A DNA stretch of 64,000 nt from Acidimicrobiaceae bacterium (GTDB lineage: Bacteria > Actinomycetota > Acidimicrobiia > Acidimicrobiales > RAAP-2): contig DAHUZT010000114.1 in assembly GCA_027315005.1 (NCBI GenBank), positions 1-64,000 of the forward strand. Direction: 5' to 3'. The translations under genes were made by a program, and so were the position numbers. Of this stretch, positions 2,610 through 13,417 are shown piece after piece. The notes under the pieces are model-generated. The model was not told the origin of the DNA. It saw nothing but the letters and a program-made list of their open reading frames with translations, and ran no database searches. The first letter of the stretch is position 1. Each line of letters begins with the position of its first letter.

Positions 2610-3713
2610 ATGACCGCTCACCCCACCGCCGATCCGGTTCCGACCAGTGTCAGCCTCTCTCCGTCGAACCACCGGCGCCGAGCAGTCCGAAACCCGCCCG
2701 AGGACAGACCCAGTGATGCCCGTGCACGGCTCGGTCGAGCCGAGAGCGCCCTTCTCGATGATCGACGGCTGCTCGACAGCGACGAGCTGGCCGGATTGGC
2801 GGAGCTGCCCGACCGGTGGGTCACCTCGCTCGCCGCCCTCGCCCATCAGGTGCGCCTGACCTGGTGCGGGTCCATGGTCGAGGTGGAAGGCATCCTTTCG
2901 GCCAAGACCGGGGGCTGCCCCGAGGACTGCCATTTCTGCTCTCAGTCTTCGCAGTTCGACACCCCGGTGAAAGCCACCCCCTTCCTCGATACGACCGAGG
3001 TACTCCGTGCGGCGATGGAAACGAAGCAAGCGGGCGCCACCGAGTTCTGCATCGTCCTCGCCGTCCGCGGTCCGGACGAACGCACACTCGAGCGGATCCT
3101 CGATCTTGTCCCGCAGGTACGTCGGGAGACCGGCATGAACGTGGCCGTCAGCGCAGGGCTCCTGACCGAGGTTCAGGCCCGGAGACTGGCGGAGGGGGGG
3201 GTCCACCGGTATAACCACAACCTGGAAACGGCGCGCTCGTACTTCCCAAACGTGGTGACCTCCCATACCTGGGAGGAACGACGCGAGACCTGTCTTCGAG
3301 TCCGCCGGTACGGAATGGAGCTGTGCTGTGGCGCCCTGATCGGAATGGGCGAATCGGTGGCGCAGCGCCTCGAGCTCATCGTACAACTACAAGAGCTGAA
3401 CCCGACCGAGGTCCCACTCAACTTCCTCAATCCGCGACCCGGCACGCCGCTCGGTGAGGCCACTCCCTTGGATGCGTGGGATGCCATCCGGTGGATCGCG
3501 CTCTTCCGCATCGGTCTTCCCGGCGTGATCCTGCGCTACGCCGGAGGTCGTGAGATGACCCTCCGCGAGCTCCAATCGATGGGGATGACTTCGGGAATCA
3601 ACGCACTGATCGTCGGGAACTACCTCACCACCCTTGGCCGAGAGGTCGACGAGGACCTTCAGATGCTGGCTGATCTCCGCATGCCGGTCGGTGCTTTGAC
3701 AGGTGTCATCTGA
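2610..3713 (+). CDS. bioB: Biotin synthase
   Basis: Radical-SAM enzyme that inserts sulfur into dethiobiotin, the last step of biotin synthesis. 367 aa, slightly longer than the usual ~345, with a non-conserved N-terminal extension of about 60 residues. The 4Fe-4S cluster motif CPEDCHFC places cysteines at residues 103, 107 and 110; YNHNLETARSYF and LNFLNPRPGTPL are typical family segments. I chose the ATG at 2610 because the region upstream overlaps the divergent dehydrogenase and because TACCGT sits six bases before it. A small Cys-rich gene starts two bases after its stop. The other synthesis genes bioA-bioF-bioD are 6.5 kb away on the opposite strand, so bioB is a separate transcription unit. 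Confidence 0.96.
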   Translation: MTAHPTADPVPTSVSLSPSNHRRRAVRNPPEDRPSDARARLGRAESALLDDRRLLDSDELAGLAELPDRWVTSLAALAHQVRLTWCGSMVEVEGILSAKTGGCPEDCHFCSQSSQFDTPVKATPFLDTTEVLRAAMETKQAGATEFCIVLAVRGPDERTLERILDLVPQVRRETGMNVAVSAGLLTEVQARRLAEGGVHRYNHNLETARSYFPNVVTSHTWEERRETCLRVRRYGMELCCGALIGMGESVAQRLELIVQLQELNPTEVPLNFLNPRPGTPLGEATPLDAWDAIRWIALFRIGLPGVILRYAGGREMTLRELQSMGMTSGINALIVGNYLTTLGREVDEDLQMLADLRMPVGALTGVI

Positions 3714-3715
3714 GG

Positions 3716-3892
3716 ATGACCGAAGAGGGCCAATACTGCACCGGATGTGGTTCGAACAGCTGCCGGGGCTGCGGACGCATCCTCGATCCACCACGATTCT
3801 GTCCCGAGTGCGGGAGCAGGATGACCGTTGCGGTGTCACCGTTGGCTTTCCGAGCCATCTGCCGTCAGCACGGGCAGATCAGCATGGAGTGA
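3716..3892 (+). CDS. bsaP: Biotin synthase auxiliary protein (BsaP-like), Cys-rich, 58 aa
   Basis: A small ORF whose ATG lies two bases after the bioB stop, with GAGG directly before it, so translation is almost certainly coupled to bioB. The 58-residue product has CTGC (C8, C11), CRGC (C16, C19), CPEC (C29, C32) and a lone C49 followed by QHG: a zinc-ribbon or Fe-S type arrangement. In mycobacteria a small Cys-rich protein directly downstream of bioB (BsaP) has been shown to be needed by BioB. Position, size and the pattern C..CGR.L....FCP.CG...CRQHG fit that protein. Orthology is inferred from position and motif; I cannot align it here. An alternative is an unrelated zinc-ribbon protein. 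Confidence 0.8.
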   Translation: MTEEGQYCTGCGSNSCRGCGRILDPPRFCPECGSRMTVAVSPLAFRAICRQHGQISME

Positions 3893-3910: not shown

Positions 3911-4192
3911 TCAGCCGGCGGGCACCTTCCAACCGCGGGACAAGGCGATCTCCTTGCAGGTGGGACACAGCGGGTACCTCCCGGGATTGCGACCAGGGAT
4001 CCAGATCTTGCCGCACAGCGCTCTGACCGCAGTTCCGTTGACCATTCCCTCCACCACCGATGGCCCCGCCGGGACGAAGTCACCAGTGTCCGGCCGGAAC
4101 CCTTCGAGGACGATGTGTGTCATTCTCTCGTGATCGCCGTCTAGTTCAGGCTCGACCCGGGTCGGCTCCGGTGAGATGTCAACATCGGTCAT
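3911..4192 (-). CDS. DUF3039 family protein
   Basis: A 93-aa actinobacterial protein of unknown role. After an acidic N-terminus (DISPEPTRVEPELDGDHERM) comes the conserved block VRALCGKIWIPGRNP followed by YPLCPTCKE. Its three cysteines (ALCGK and CPTC) suggest a small metal-binding fold. The ATG at 4192 is preceded by GGTGGG; a longer in-frame extension to 4300 would overlap the divergent maf gene and is not needed by the family. It converges on bioB-bsaP and diverges from maf. Its presence supports an actinobacterial host. Function is unknown. Confidence 0.85.
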   Translation of the reverse strand: MTDVDISPEPTRVEPELDGDHERMTHIVLEGFRPDTGDFVPAGPSVVEGMVNGTAVRALCGKIWIPGRNPGRYPLCPTCKEIALSRGWKVPAG

Positions 4193-4245
4193 CCCACCAG
4201 GATCGCGCATGTGCGAACAACGTCGCGCCCGAGTGGGGGTCATCG

Positions 4246-4251
4246 TAGGCT
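4246..4251 (+). promoter_or_regulatory. Putative -10 hexamer of a leaderless maf-dus transcript
   Basis: TAGGCT ends six bases before the maf ATG at 4258, with no Shine-Dalgarno sequence between. This matches the leaderless spacing seen at bioB, birA, ftsH and others. No clear -35 element. Confidence 0.45.
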
Positions 4252-4257
4252 CGGTGC

Positions 4258-4860
4258 ATGCCCCGCCGCACCCTGGTCCTCGCCTCCAGTTCCCCTGCAC
4301 GACTTCGCCTCCTCGAGGATGCGGGATTCGACCCCAGAGTGGCGATCAGCGGCGTCGACGAGACGCAGGTGAGCTCCTCCGGACTCCCCGATCTGGTCCA
4401 GTTACTGGCGGAACTCAAGGCCCGGGCGGTGGCCCGACCGGGCGGCACCTCGGTGGTGGTCGGATGCGACTCGATGCTCGAGTTCGATGGAACCCCGCAT
4501 GGCAAACCCGCGTCCGAGGACGAAGCCCGCCGGTGGCTGCGGTCGATGCGGAACAGGTCGGGCACCTTGTTCACTGGACACTGCGTGGTCGACGAACAAA
4601 GTGGACGTCAGGCTTGTGCCACCGGCGCAACTCTGGTCCACTTCGGTCCGATCTCCGACGAGGAGATCGATGCATACCTGTCGACCGGCGAGGCGCTGAA
4701 CGTAGCCGGGGCCTTCACACTCGACGGTCGATCGGCACCTTTCGTCCGAGGCGTGGAGGGGGACCCAAGCAACGTGATCGGCCTGTCGCTGCCGCTGTTC
4801 CGTTCGATGCTCTCAGAGCTCGGTCTCACCGTGTCCGAGTTCTGGAAGGCTCCCATCTGA
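4258..4860 (+). CDS. maf: Maf-like nucleotide pyrophosphatase
   Basis: Hydrolyses non-canonical or modified nucleoside triphosphates to monophosphates ('house-cleaning'); Maf proteins are also linked to septum formation. 200 aa, a full-length Maf fold. It begins LVLASSSPARLRLL, followed by the catalytic-region motifs GCDSML and GKPAS, then GEALNVAGAFTLDG and the C-terminal GDPSNVIGLSLPLFRSML. These closely follow the mycobacterial Maf (Rv3282) pattern as I remember it. The stop overlaps the next ATG by one base (TGATG), so it forms an operon with the dihydrouridine synthase. Base specificity cannot be judged from sequence. Confidence 0.92.
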   Translation: MPRRTLVLASSSPARLRLLEDAGFDPRVAISGVDETQVSSSGLPDLVQLLAELKARAVARPGGTSVVVGCDSMLEFDGTPHGKPASEDEARRWLRSMRNRSGTLFTGHCVVDEQSGRQACATGATLVHFGPISDEEIDAYLSTGEALNVAGAFTLDGRSAPFVRGVEGDPSNVIGLSLPLFRSMLSELGLTVSEFWKAPI

Positions 4861-10225: not shown

Positions 10226-10906
10226 TCATGTCCCCATGACCAGGTCGACCAGCCGAGCCTCCTCCCCGGGCAGCGTCACGACGGTGTACCCGTCACGCTC
10301 GACGAGCCACCTCCGGTTCCGGCAGTGCAGGTCGTGCTCGCTGTCGTAGCGGTCGAGCACCACCACCGCGGCGGGAGCGACACTCGTGTCGGCCGCTCCG
10401 AGCGCCTCCATCGAGAGGCGCACCAGATTGATGGTACCGAGACCGGCATCGGCCACCAGCACCACCAGCCCGGGCCGGAGCGCGCCGACCAGATGGGTCA
10501 CGTCACCATCGGTGGCCTGGGGCGAGCGCACGCCCCCGGCCGTCTCGACGAGGCCCACCTCGACGGAAGGCGTCGGCCAGTCGACGGCTCCGAGTAGGTC
10601 TGCGACTGTGAAGTCGGGCAGGCCGAGCGCTTCGGCGGCCATCGGCGGCGCCATGGCCCGGTGGAAGGTGTGCCCCGGTGGGCAGACCCGGTCGGCTGGC
10701 TCACCGGATGCCTCCCCCAGGAGCTCGGCGTCGGTCGGGCCCCCTACAGGGTTATTCGCCGCGTCGAGGTCGAAGGACTGGGCAGGCTTGCGGGCGGCCA
10801 CGCTGACACCGCGGCCCCGTAGATCCCCGAGCAGGCGAGCGGCCACCCAGGTCTTTCCGACCTCGGTTCCCGTCCCGCACACGAGGACCAGGCGTTCAGG
10901 AAGCAT
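10226..10906 (-). CDS. bioD: Dethiobiotin synthetase
   Basis: ATP-dependent carboxylation and ring closure of 7,8-diaminopelargonate to dethiobiotin. 226 aa from the ATG at 10906. P-loop CGTGTEVGKTW is at residues 10-20; KPAQSFD, the catalytic-glutamate segment VETAGGVRSP and VLVADAGLGTINLV follow. The start I chose overlaps the bioF stop by 11 bases; a start at 10924 would add six residues without support. Last gene of the leftward bioA-bioF-bioD unit, ending at a double hairpin. KPAQSFD replaces the KPV.TG form of the E. coli enzyme. Confidence 0.94.
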   Translation of the reverse strand: MLPERLVLVCGTGTEVGKTWVAARLLGDLRGRGVSVAARKPAQSFDLDAANNPVGGPTDAELLGEASGEPADRVCPPGHTFHRAMAPPMAAEALGLPDFTVADLLGAVDWPTPSVEVGLVETAGGVRSPQATDGDVTHLVGALRPGLVVLVADAGLGTINLVRLSMEALGAADTSVAPAAVVVLDRYDSEHDLHCRNRRWLVERDGYTVVTLPGEEARLVDLVMGT

Positions 10907-12113
10907 GCCGCACCGCGGTGCCAAGCAACCGTTCCAGGGCGACGAGAAGCCGGTCCACCTGCTCGTCGGTGTGTGCAGCCGAAAGCGTCACCCGCAGTCG
11001 CGAGGTTCCGGTCTGCACGGTCGGAGGGCGGATCGCTGGCACCCACAGTCCGTCCTCCAGCAGCCGGTCCGATGCGACGAGCGCTTCCCGCTCGTCACCC
11101 AACACGATGGGGATGATCGGGGAAGGGTGGCCGTCGAGCCCGACCGCCTCGGACACCCGGGTGACGTGGTTCCTCAACCGCGCGAGGAGCGCATCTCCCT
11201 CGGCGGAACGCATCACGGTGAGGCTGGAGAGGGCGGCGGCGGTGTCTGCCGGGGTGGGTGCGGTGGTGAAGATGTACGGACGGCCCCGGTTGACCAGGAG
11301 GTCGCAGAAGGCAGCAGGTCCGCTGACGAACCCCCCGAGAGAGCCGAGTGCCTTCGACAACGTACCCACCCGGAGGATCGGGGTGGTATCGCGGACGGCC
11401 GGAAGCTCGGGCCCGAGCACCGCGTGGGCCTCGTCGAGGATGACGAGTGCGCCATGGCGACCCGCCACCGACAACAGTCCATCGACGTCCGCGTTGTCAC
11501 CATCCATCGAGAAGACGGTGTCGGAGACCACCACGGACCGTCCGGCAACCGCGCCCAGAGCACGGTCGAGGTGCGCCAGATCGCGATGGGGAAAGATCCG
11601 TACAGACGCCCGGGCCAGCCGGCATCCGTCGACGATCGATGCGTGATTGAGCTCGTCGGAGAAGATCACCACGTCATCGGAACCGAAGACCGACAGTACC
11701 GAGAGATTCGCGGCGAAGCCGGTCGGGAAGAGTACTGCCCGCTGGTCACCCTTCCAGGTGGCGAGCGCCGCTTCCAGCTCGACATGGACCGGGCGTGACC
11801 CGGTGACCAGGCGAGAGGCGCCCGCGCCGGATCCCCACCGTTCGGTGGCCACACCCGCCGCTTCGATGACCGCCGGATGCTCGGACAGACCCAGGTAGTC
11901 GTTGGAGGCGAAGGACACGACCCGGAGCACGGTCCCCGGGCCGGTCTCCAGTGAGCCTGCAGGACCGAGGGCGTCGAACGTACGCGGTCTGCGCCACCTT
12001 CCCGAAGCCTCCACACGCCGGCAGGCATCGTCCACCCACGCCGCCCATCCCGTGCCGCTCGGAACTCGCTCGGCCGGTCGTTCGGCCTCGGGCCGCAGAT
12101 CCCTGGGAGTCAT
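10896..12113 (-). CDS. bioF: 8-amino-7-oxononanoate synthase
   Basis: PLP enzyme condensing pimeloyl-thioester with alanine. 405 aa. SFASNDYLGLSEHPAV opens the fold; SDELNHASIVDG, the DEAHAVLG aspartate that contacts the PLP ring nitrogen, and the PLP-lysine segment GTLSKALGSLGGFV are all present. The start ATG at 12113 overlaps the bioA stop as ATGA, which decides it over the GTG at 12125. Coupled downstream to bioD. The N-terminal 60 residues are longer and more basic than in E. coli BioF. Confidence 0.95.
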   Translation of the reverse strand: MTPRDLRPEAERPAERVPSGTGWAAWVDDACRRVEASGRWRRPRTFDALGPAGSLETGPGTVLRVVSFASNDYLGLSEHPAVIEAAGVATERWGSGAGASRLVTGSRPVHVELEAALATWKGDQRAVLFPTGFAANLSVLSVFGSDDVVIFSDELNHASIVDGCRLARASVRIFPHRDLAHLDRALGAVAGRSVVVSDTVFSMDGDNADVDGLLSVAGRHGALVILDEAHAVLGPELPAVRDTTPILRVGTLSKALGSLGGFVSGPAAFCDLLVNRGRPYIFTTAPTPADTAAALSSLTVMRSAEGDALLARLRNHVTRVSEAVGLDGHPSPIIPIVLGDEREALVASDRLLEDGLWVPAIRPPTVQTGTSRLRVTLSAAHTDEQVDRLLVALERLLGTAVRHAS

Positions 12114-13417
12114 CGGCTGTCCCACAAGAGGACCGTGTCGATAGCTTCGGCAAGCACGTCGACGATTCGTCTGATCTCATCGGTGGTGGTGGTGAGTGGC
12201 GGCATGAGCACCACCACATCCCCGAGCGGTCGGAGGAACACGCCGTTCCGGACGGCCTCGGCACACACCCGGCGACCCAGCCGCACCGATCGCGCCGGGG
12301 GCGCCAGCTCGACTCCGGCCATGAGACCCCGTCGGCGCACAGCAGCCACACCGGGACGGCCGACCAGAGTGTCGTCCAGTCTGGACGCGAGGTGGTCACC
12401 GACCTCACCCACATGGTCCAGGACCTTCCACTCGTCCAACAGCTCGAGGTGTCGGCGGGCCACGGCACAGCCCAGCGCATTCCCGCCGTAGGAATGTCCG
12501 TGGTAGAGGGTCTTCGGCCCTAGATCGGCCCCGTCGAAGGCGTCGAACACCGGGCCCGATACGACGGTGGCCGACAGGGGGAGGTATCCGCCGGTGATGC
12601 CCTTGCCCAGACAGATCAGATCCGGGCGGAAGGCAGGTCCCGCCCACTCTGAGGCGAACAACTTTCCTGTCCGGCCGAATCCGGTGGCCACTTCGTCGCA
12701 GATGAGAAGCACTCCCGAGTCCCGGCAGGCCTCACCCACCCGGGCCAGGTCGGACGGTTCGGAGACCAGCATTCCCGAAGCGCCCTGGACCATCGGCTCG
12801 ATCACCAATGCCACCAGCTCGTCGGCATGACACTCGATGGCAGACACCGCCTTGTCTGCCCAATCGGAGACTGCATAACCGGGGGTCCGGACCACGGGAA
12901 ACCGCAGTGGGTCGAAGAGCTTGGTCCCGAAGCCCCCGTCCCCAAGCGAGAGGGCGCCCATCGTGTCGCCGTGGTAGGCATCCCCCAGCGCGAGAAAGTG
13001 TCGACGTTCGGCCTCCCCGCGGTTGACCCAGTACTGGAAGGCGATCTTCGCGGCCTGCTCCACGGAAACGGCACCGTCGGACGCGAACAGGATGTGGGCG
13101 TCGTCCACCGGCACCACGGCAGCCAGGGCCTCGGCCAGCTCGATGGTGGCGCGGTTGCCGTTCCCGAGCAAGGTCGAGTGCGCGATCCTCCCGAGCTGGT
13201 CGATGACCGCGGCGTCGAGCTCGGGAACCCGGTGCCCGAGCGTGGTGACCCACAGGGAGGAGATGGCGTCGAAGTACCGGTTGCCGTCGACGTCGATGAG
13301 CTCTCGGCCCTCGCCCCGTTCGATCACGATGGGGGCGCTGTCGACATAGCTGGCCATCTGGGTGAAACCGTGCCAGACGACGGCGCTGTCCCTCGCCACC
13401 CAGTCGGCCGCGGTCAC
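12110..13417 (-). CDS. bioA: Adenosylmethionine-8-amino-7-oxononanoate aminotransferase
   Basis: Class III PLP transaminase that uses SAM as amino donor to make 7,8-diaminopelargonate. 435 aa. WHGFTQMASY near the start is the BioA substrate-site signature; YFDAISSLWVTTLGHRVPE, GDAYHGDTMGALSLGD, CDEVATGFGRTGK and the PLP-lysine segment ICLGKGITGGYLPLSATV follow. GTG start at 13417 with GAAAGAG upstream. First gene of the tightly overlapping bioA-F-D unit. No pimelate-forming genes (bioC, bioH, bioW, bioI) are in the window. Confidence 0.96.
   Translation of the reverse strand: MTAADWVARDSAVVWHGFTQMASYVDSAPIVIERGEGRELIDVDGNRYFDAISSLWVTTLGHRVPELDAAVIDQLGRIAHSTLLGNGNRATIELAEALAAVVPVDDAHILFASDGAVSVEQAAKIAFQYWVNRGEAERRHFLALGDAYHGDTMGALSLGDGGFGTKLFDPLRFPVVRTPGYAVSDWADKAVSAIECHADELVALVIEPMVQGASGMLVSEPSDLARVGEACRDSGVLLICDEVATGFGRTGKLFASEWAGPAFRPDLICLGKGITGGYLPLSATVVSGPVFDAFDGADLGPKTLYHGHSYGGNALGCAVARRHLELLDEWKVLDHVGEVGDHLASRLDDTLVGRPGVAAVRRRGLMAGVELAPPARSVRLGRRVCAEAVRNGVFLRPLGDVVVLMPPLTTTTDEIRRIVDVLAEAIDTVLLWDSR

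Follow-up and report, generated by a model that had tools for sequence, protein, structure and literature searches.

Biotin synthase (BioB) from Mycobacterium tuberculosis and M. smegmatis requires a small partner protein, BsaP, and hundreds of actinobacterial BsaP homologues have been described, most of them encoded downstream of bioB (Qu et al. 2024, PMC11099021). According to the same study, maximal activity of the M. tuberculosis system was obtained when BioB and BsaP were reconstituted together with Fe and S, Cys-to-Ala substitution made M. tuberculosis BsaP unstable, and the mycobacterial protein may bind an oxygen-sensitive Fe-S cluster; a natural BioB-BsaP fusion was predicted to put BsaP near the auxiliary cluster of the synthase. 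BioB enzymes associated with BsaP carry a characteristic set of substitutions—Cys128 to Ala, Ser43 to Glu, Arg95 to Glu, Tyr149 to Arg and Ser218 to Glu—and conserved arginines (R49, R63 and R66) lie near the cysteines of M. tuberculosis BsaP (PMC11099021). The wider question is how a BioB that misses a ligand of its [2Fe-2S] cluster makes biotin with BsaP. The family and its actinobacterial spread are already known, an NCBIfam model exists, and the points added by our comparison are modest: a candidate His/Cys fourth ligand and a second candidate site that is absent from mycobacterial-type BsaP.

The locus under study lies in a window of 64,000 nucleotides (the whole stretch of DNA that was analysed), with the following features:

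2610 to 3713, forward strand: bioB of the BsaP-associated type (TIGR00433, 366 bits against a cut-off of 225); the start was set at 2610, and an in-frame start exists further upstream.
3716 to 3892, forward strand: bsaP, encoding a biotin synthase auxiliary protein of 58 amino acids (equivalog match to NCBIfam NF052237).
3737 to 3772, forward strand: N-terminal candidate metal site, Cys8/Cys11/Cys16/Cys19 (CxxC-x4-CxxC), with the pattern CxxC...[C/H]...C in relatives.
3800 to 3871, forward strand: C-terminal core, a candidate metal site formed by Cys29/Cys32/Cys49/His52 (CxxC-x16-CxxH).
10379 to 13378, reverse strand: bioA, bioF and bioD candidates (TIGR00508 over its cut-off; TIGR00858 at 2e-109 and TIGR00347 at 3e-15, both under cut-off).

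Translation of positions 3716-3892 gives MTEEGQYCTGCGSNSCRGCGRILDPPRFCPECGSRMTVAVSPLAFRAICRQHGQISME, followed by a stop; the product contains seven cysteines (8, 11, 16, 19, 29, 32 and 49) and a histidine at position 52. The bioB stop codon TGA (3711-3713) is followed by GG and then by the bsaP ATG at 3716, a gap of 2 nt, and the two genes are probably translated together. The first-pass annotation had described this 58-codon frame, two bases past bioB, with cysteine motifs and coordinates that proved exact, and had proposed that it is coupled to bioB and encodes a BsaP ortholog. The 58-aa protein scores 46.3 bits against NF052237 (cut-off 39, E = 3.1e-12), or 44.1 bits in the genome-wide search, and is therefore a BsaP; the description as an ortholog outside the mycobacteria holds in substance, but it is not new, having been preceded by Qu et al. 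2024 (PMC11099021) and by the NCBIfam model. The coupling is borne out both by the short gap and by the recurrence of the arrangement: in 118 distinct loci, bioB is followed by an HMM-detectable BsaP within about 200 nt—a number that is not a frequency, roughly half of these loci having been found by searching for BsaP. For the contig scan a narrower alignment was used, the broad BsaP alignment being too diverse. In comparisons with three close relatives, 18 to 21 of the 26 to 31 nucleotide differences fall at third codon positions. This bias, the curated model match and the 118 bioB-linked loci together argue that the frame is not there by chance. The genome search returned a single convincing bsaP copy, and the nearest named relatives of the protein come from Acidimicrobiaceae metagenome-assembled genomes, so that the DNA probably stems from a member of the Acidimicrobiia.

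Compared with Rv1590 and MSMEG_3195, the mycobacterial BsaPs, the protein has in common the gene position directly downstream of bioB, a Cys128-less BioB as partner, the CxxC-x16-C core and the PPR[FY]CxxCG motif; it differs in being shorter and in adding the N-terminal CxxC-x4-CxxC (the M. tuberculosis side of this comparison is known by its published numbering). The partner enzyme conforms to the same type. Aligned to E. coli K-12 BioB, it retains the radical-SAM cysteines, Cys97, Cys188 and Arg260, Cys128 is replaced by Ala, and the residues at the other diagnostic positions are E43, E95, A128, R149 and E218 (E. coli numbering), giving the signature ECCCECARCER at positions 43/53/57/60/95/97/128/149/188/218/260 (row L051). 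All BsaP-associated substitutions listed in PMC11099021 are thus present. With the bioA, bioF and bioD candidates at 10379-13378 on the reverse strand, the ring-assembly pathway appears complete. Downstream of bioB-bsaP lie a DUF3039 gene on the other strand and then maf and dus genes; the DUF3039 gene (3911-4300 of the window, reverse strand) is convergent to bsaP and likewise carries a CxxC motif.

To place this pair in a wider context, we surveyed 198 genomes drawn from the phylum and 148 from the order (about 340 in all), counting matches over the family cut-off in the former and matches at E up to 0.001 in the latter. BsaP and bioB matches occurred together in 70 genomes, and 69 of these could be typed from the BioB sequence, each having at least one BioB without Cys128; the BioB of G220 is a contig fragment and was left untyped, and the bsaP-adjacent BioB copy of G288 is too short to type. 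BsaP was present in 69 of the 74 genomes with a Cys128-less BioB and in 0 of the 42 with Cys128-type BioB only (Fisher p = 2e-26, a value that ignores shared ancestry), which bears out the co-occurrence of bioB and BsaP across actinobacteria that the first-pass annotation had suggested checking. The Cys128-less enzymes may form one clade, so the association may reflect few evolutionary events. As it stands, the presence or absence of Cys128 in BioB predicts BsaP from sequence in nearly all examined genomes. Five genomes with a Cys128-less BioB (G016, G040, G257, G275 and G324; 85-99% complete) yielded no detectable BsaP; hence either not every such enzyme may depend on BsaP, or some BsaPs are too divergent to find.

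Several loci in the survey depart from the usual arrangement. BsaP-associated BioB does not always have Ala in place of Cys128: Asn and Ser were found as well, and the idea of a universal Ala was rejected. Beside the Asn128 BioBs (L096, L099, L104, L145, L147 and L157) an adjacent bsaP is mostly absent; some of these genomes carry bsaP at another place or beside a second copy of bioB, and L147 stops at a contig edge. BsaP does not adjoin bioB in G239, G242, G253 and G183, and in G253 (L075 / L191) it lies near a bioD-like gene on the opposite strand. One order genome (G272) gave a weak BsaP match (E = 1e-4) without bioB. In G040, a Cys-rich ORF with the motif CPVC-x16-CLCLGC follows the Cys128-less bioB directly (L038), in the place of a recognisable BsaP; it could be a helper that replaces BsaP, or a BsaP that has diverged strongly. 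Among the fetched loci, no BioB-BsaP fusion was seen.

One pattern within the protein concerns the core. Its CxxC-x16-C spacing is invariant in all 118 bioB-linked BsaPs and equals that of Cys44, Cys47 and Cys64 in M. tuberculosis BsaP (numbering from PMC11099021), whose R49, R63 and R66 correspond by spacing to positions 34, 48 and 51—here S, I and Q, with R35 and R50 close by. At position 52, the third residue past the last cysteine, we found His in 102 proteins, Cys in 10 and another residue in 6 (L107 and L200 were read by eye and both counted as having an N-terminal Cys site and a core His); by a quick method, His/Cys changes at this position occurred at least six times on the BioB tree, and the neighbouring positions 50 and 51 vary. 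His/Cys interchange is typical of metal ligands, and here it points to a Cys3His/Cys4 site of the zinc-ribbon or rubredoxin-like kind, with His52 as the candidate fourth ligand alongside Cys29, Cys32 and Cys49. The residue that the first-pass annotation had read as a lone Cys before QHG, namely Cys49, is thus likely partnered by His52, which is mainly replaced by Cys in relatives. A term search that covered the main text of PMC11099021 turned up neither zinc nor a histidine ligand; we do not claim priority for the fourth ligand or the second site.

The N-terminal cysteine pairs, which had been regarded as extra, are indeed present, but they are extra with respect to mycobacterial-type BsaP only: a CxxC...[C/H]...C pattern occurs in 110 of the 118 bioB-linked BsaPs, which is not an unbiased frequency because about half of the loci were collected by scanning with a DPPRFCPxC pattern and with a query that itself bears the N-terminal site. 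All eight proteins without the pattern stem from the genome survey. The third ligand of this site swapped between Cys and His at least seven times on the BioB tree. A mycobacterial-type clade of five members (L004-L007 and L057, family f31, which we infer to be the mycobacterial family; SH-aLRT 94) is without the site and is nested in a 14-member group (SH-aLRT 98), the other members of which—Pseudonocardiaceae and one Rhodococcus-labelled record—have it. The site is also absent from the BsaP on a plasmid of Tsukamurella, a member of the Mycobacteriales (P0002), and present in that on an Arthrobacter plasmid; where it is absent, YNVYTG, FNVYTG, YNPFTG or YDVYTG stands in its place (L004-L007, L057 and P0002). 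The simpler reading of these sequences, made less certain by a midpoint root and a quick tree, is that the site was apparently lost in the Mycobacteriales branch. We lean towards the view that BsaP was ancestrally of a two-site, double-zinc-ribbon type and that the mycobacterial form is reduced, its N-terminal site lost and its fourth core ligand supplied by H67 (M. tuberculosis, by spacing). If so, the core Cys3His/Cys4 site would serve the Cys128-less BioB, and the protein studied in mycobacteria would be a reduced form. Short two-site BsaPs like the 58-aa one may be better suited to spectroscopy or structure determination.

Structure prediction is compatible with a core of the zinc-ribbon type without proving one. 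The AlphaFold2 model (56 sequences; pLDDT 80, pTM 0.61) is small and largely loop, with short strands at 37-40, 45-49 and 53-55 only. A fold search with this model gave no significant match, the best being to a two-Zn model of E. coli YfgJ (E = 0.49, probability 0.69); a Pfam search of the 58-aa protein returned no family above cut-off, with weak zinc-ribbon matches below it, and a PDB sequence search with the BsaP profile found nothing significant. Double zinc ribbons of the YfgJ (Zn_ribbon_6) type and rubredoxin-like knuckles have in common with BsaP the CxxC...CxxC/H knuckles and short strands, but the sequence and fold matches are weak and not significant, and BsaP is set apart by its linkage to bioB and by the PPR[FY]C motif, both specific to it.

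Taken as a whole, family membership, linkage, co-occurrence with Cys128-less BioB and the ligand pattern are read directly from the genomes, and they lead us to consider it highly probable that the ORF is bsaP and encodes a metalloprotein enabling the Cys128-less BioB through a four-ligand core, the N-terminal site being mainly structural. We infer that the 58-aa BsaP acts as the mycobacterial protein does, and likewise its metal and its effect on the cluster. BsaP would bind a BioB whose sulfur-donating [2Fe-2S] cluster misses one ligand (Cys128 to Ala); its CxxC-x16-CxxH core, a putative zinc-ribbon or rubredoxin-like knuckle with four ligands, would hold a single Fe or small Fe-S centre; and this centre, placed beside the auxiliary cluster, may complete, feed or rebuild that cluster, so letting the enzyme insert sulfur into dethiobiotin. 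The second site, the N-terminal CxxC-x4-CxxC, would have a mainly structural role, and some lineages could dispense with it. Counting against this reading are the 6 of 118 BsaPs in which position 52 holds a residue other than His or Cys, the five genomes that have a Cys128-less BioB but no detectable BsaP, and the lack of significance of the fold match. The anaerobic spectra of M. tuberculosis BsaP, which suggest an Fe-S cluster (PMC11099021), fit less well with a mononuclear zinc-ribbon version of it.

Should the protein instead be a zinc ribbon with a structural role only, keeping the altered BioB active site stable or in position and doing no Fe-S or redox chemistry, the free exchange of His and Cys at both sites would follow easily, since a finely tuned redox centre would presumably tolerate it badly, and the weak zinc-ribbon matches in the Pfam and fold searches would fit as well; we nevertheless hold this unlikely, as M. 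tuberculosis BioB in vitro needed BsaP that had been reconstituted anaerobically with Fe and S (PMC11099021). Slightly less likely is a [3Fe-4S]-like cluster on three cysteines, with His52 and the N-terminal cysteines as non-ligands: Qu et al. likened the three cysteines to those of a [3Fe-4S] ferredoxin and observed increased absorbance at 420-452 nm after anaerobic reconstitution, whereas a thesis, as cited in PMC11099021, terms BsaP rubredoxin-like. The four-ligand pattern speaks against it too, with His or Cys at position 52 in 112 of 118 proteins, repeated swaps there and variable neighbours, and would make [3Fe-4S] less likely than mononuclear Fe/Zn or a [2Fe-2S] Cys3His/Cys4 centre; the same pattern supplies a candidate fourth ligand that can be tested. 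That an unrelated small zinc-ribbon ORF sits behind bioB by chance—such CxxC-rich frames are common, and the neighbouring DUF3039 gene on the other strand has a CxxC motif—is refuted by the curated NF052237 match, by a core common to 117 other bioB-linked relatives and by the absence of BsaP beside all Cys128-type BioBs examined.

Three further observations concern the records themselves. On an Arthrobacter plasmid, a bsaP-like ORF between bioB and bioA (L242:2376-2613) has no gene listed over it; as PLSDB lists genes incompletely, this is no more than a hint that bsaP escapes gene callers. The BsaP of the Rhodococcus rhodnii-labelled record (L232) is almost the same as the Kibdelosporangium one, and the record is probably mislabelled. 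The same probably applies to three Bifidobacterium breve-labelled bins (L208, L221 and L226), which carry bioB-bsaP of the Acidimicrobiia type.
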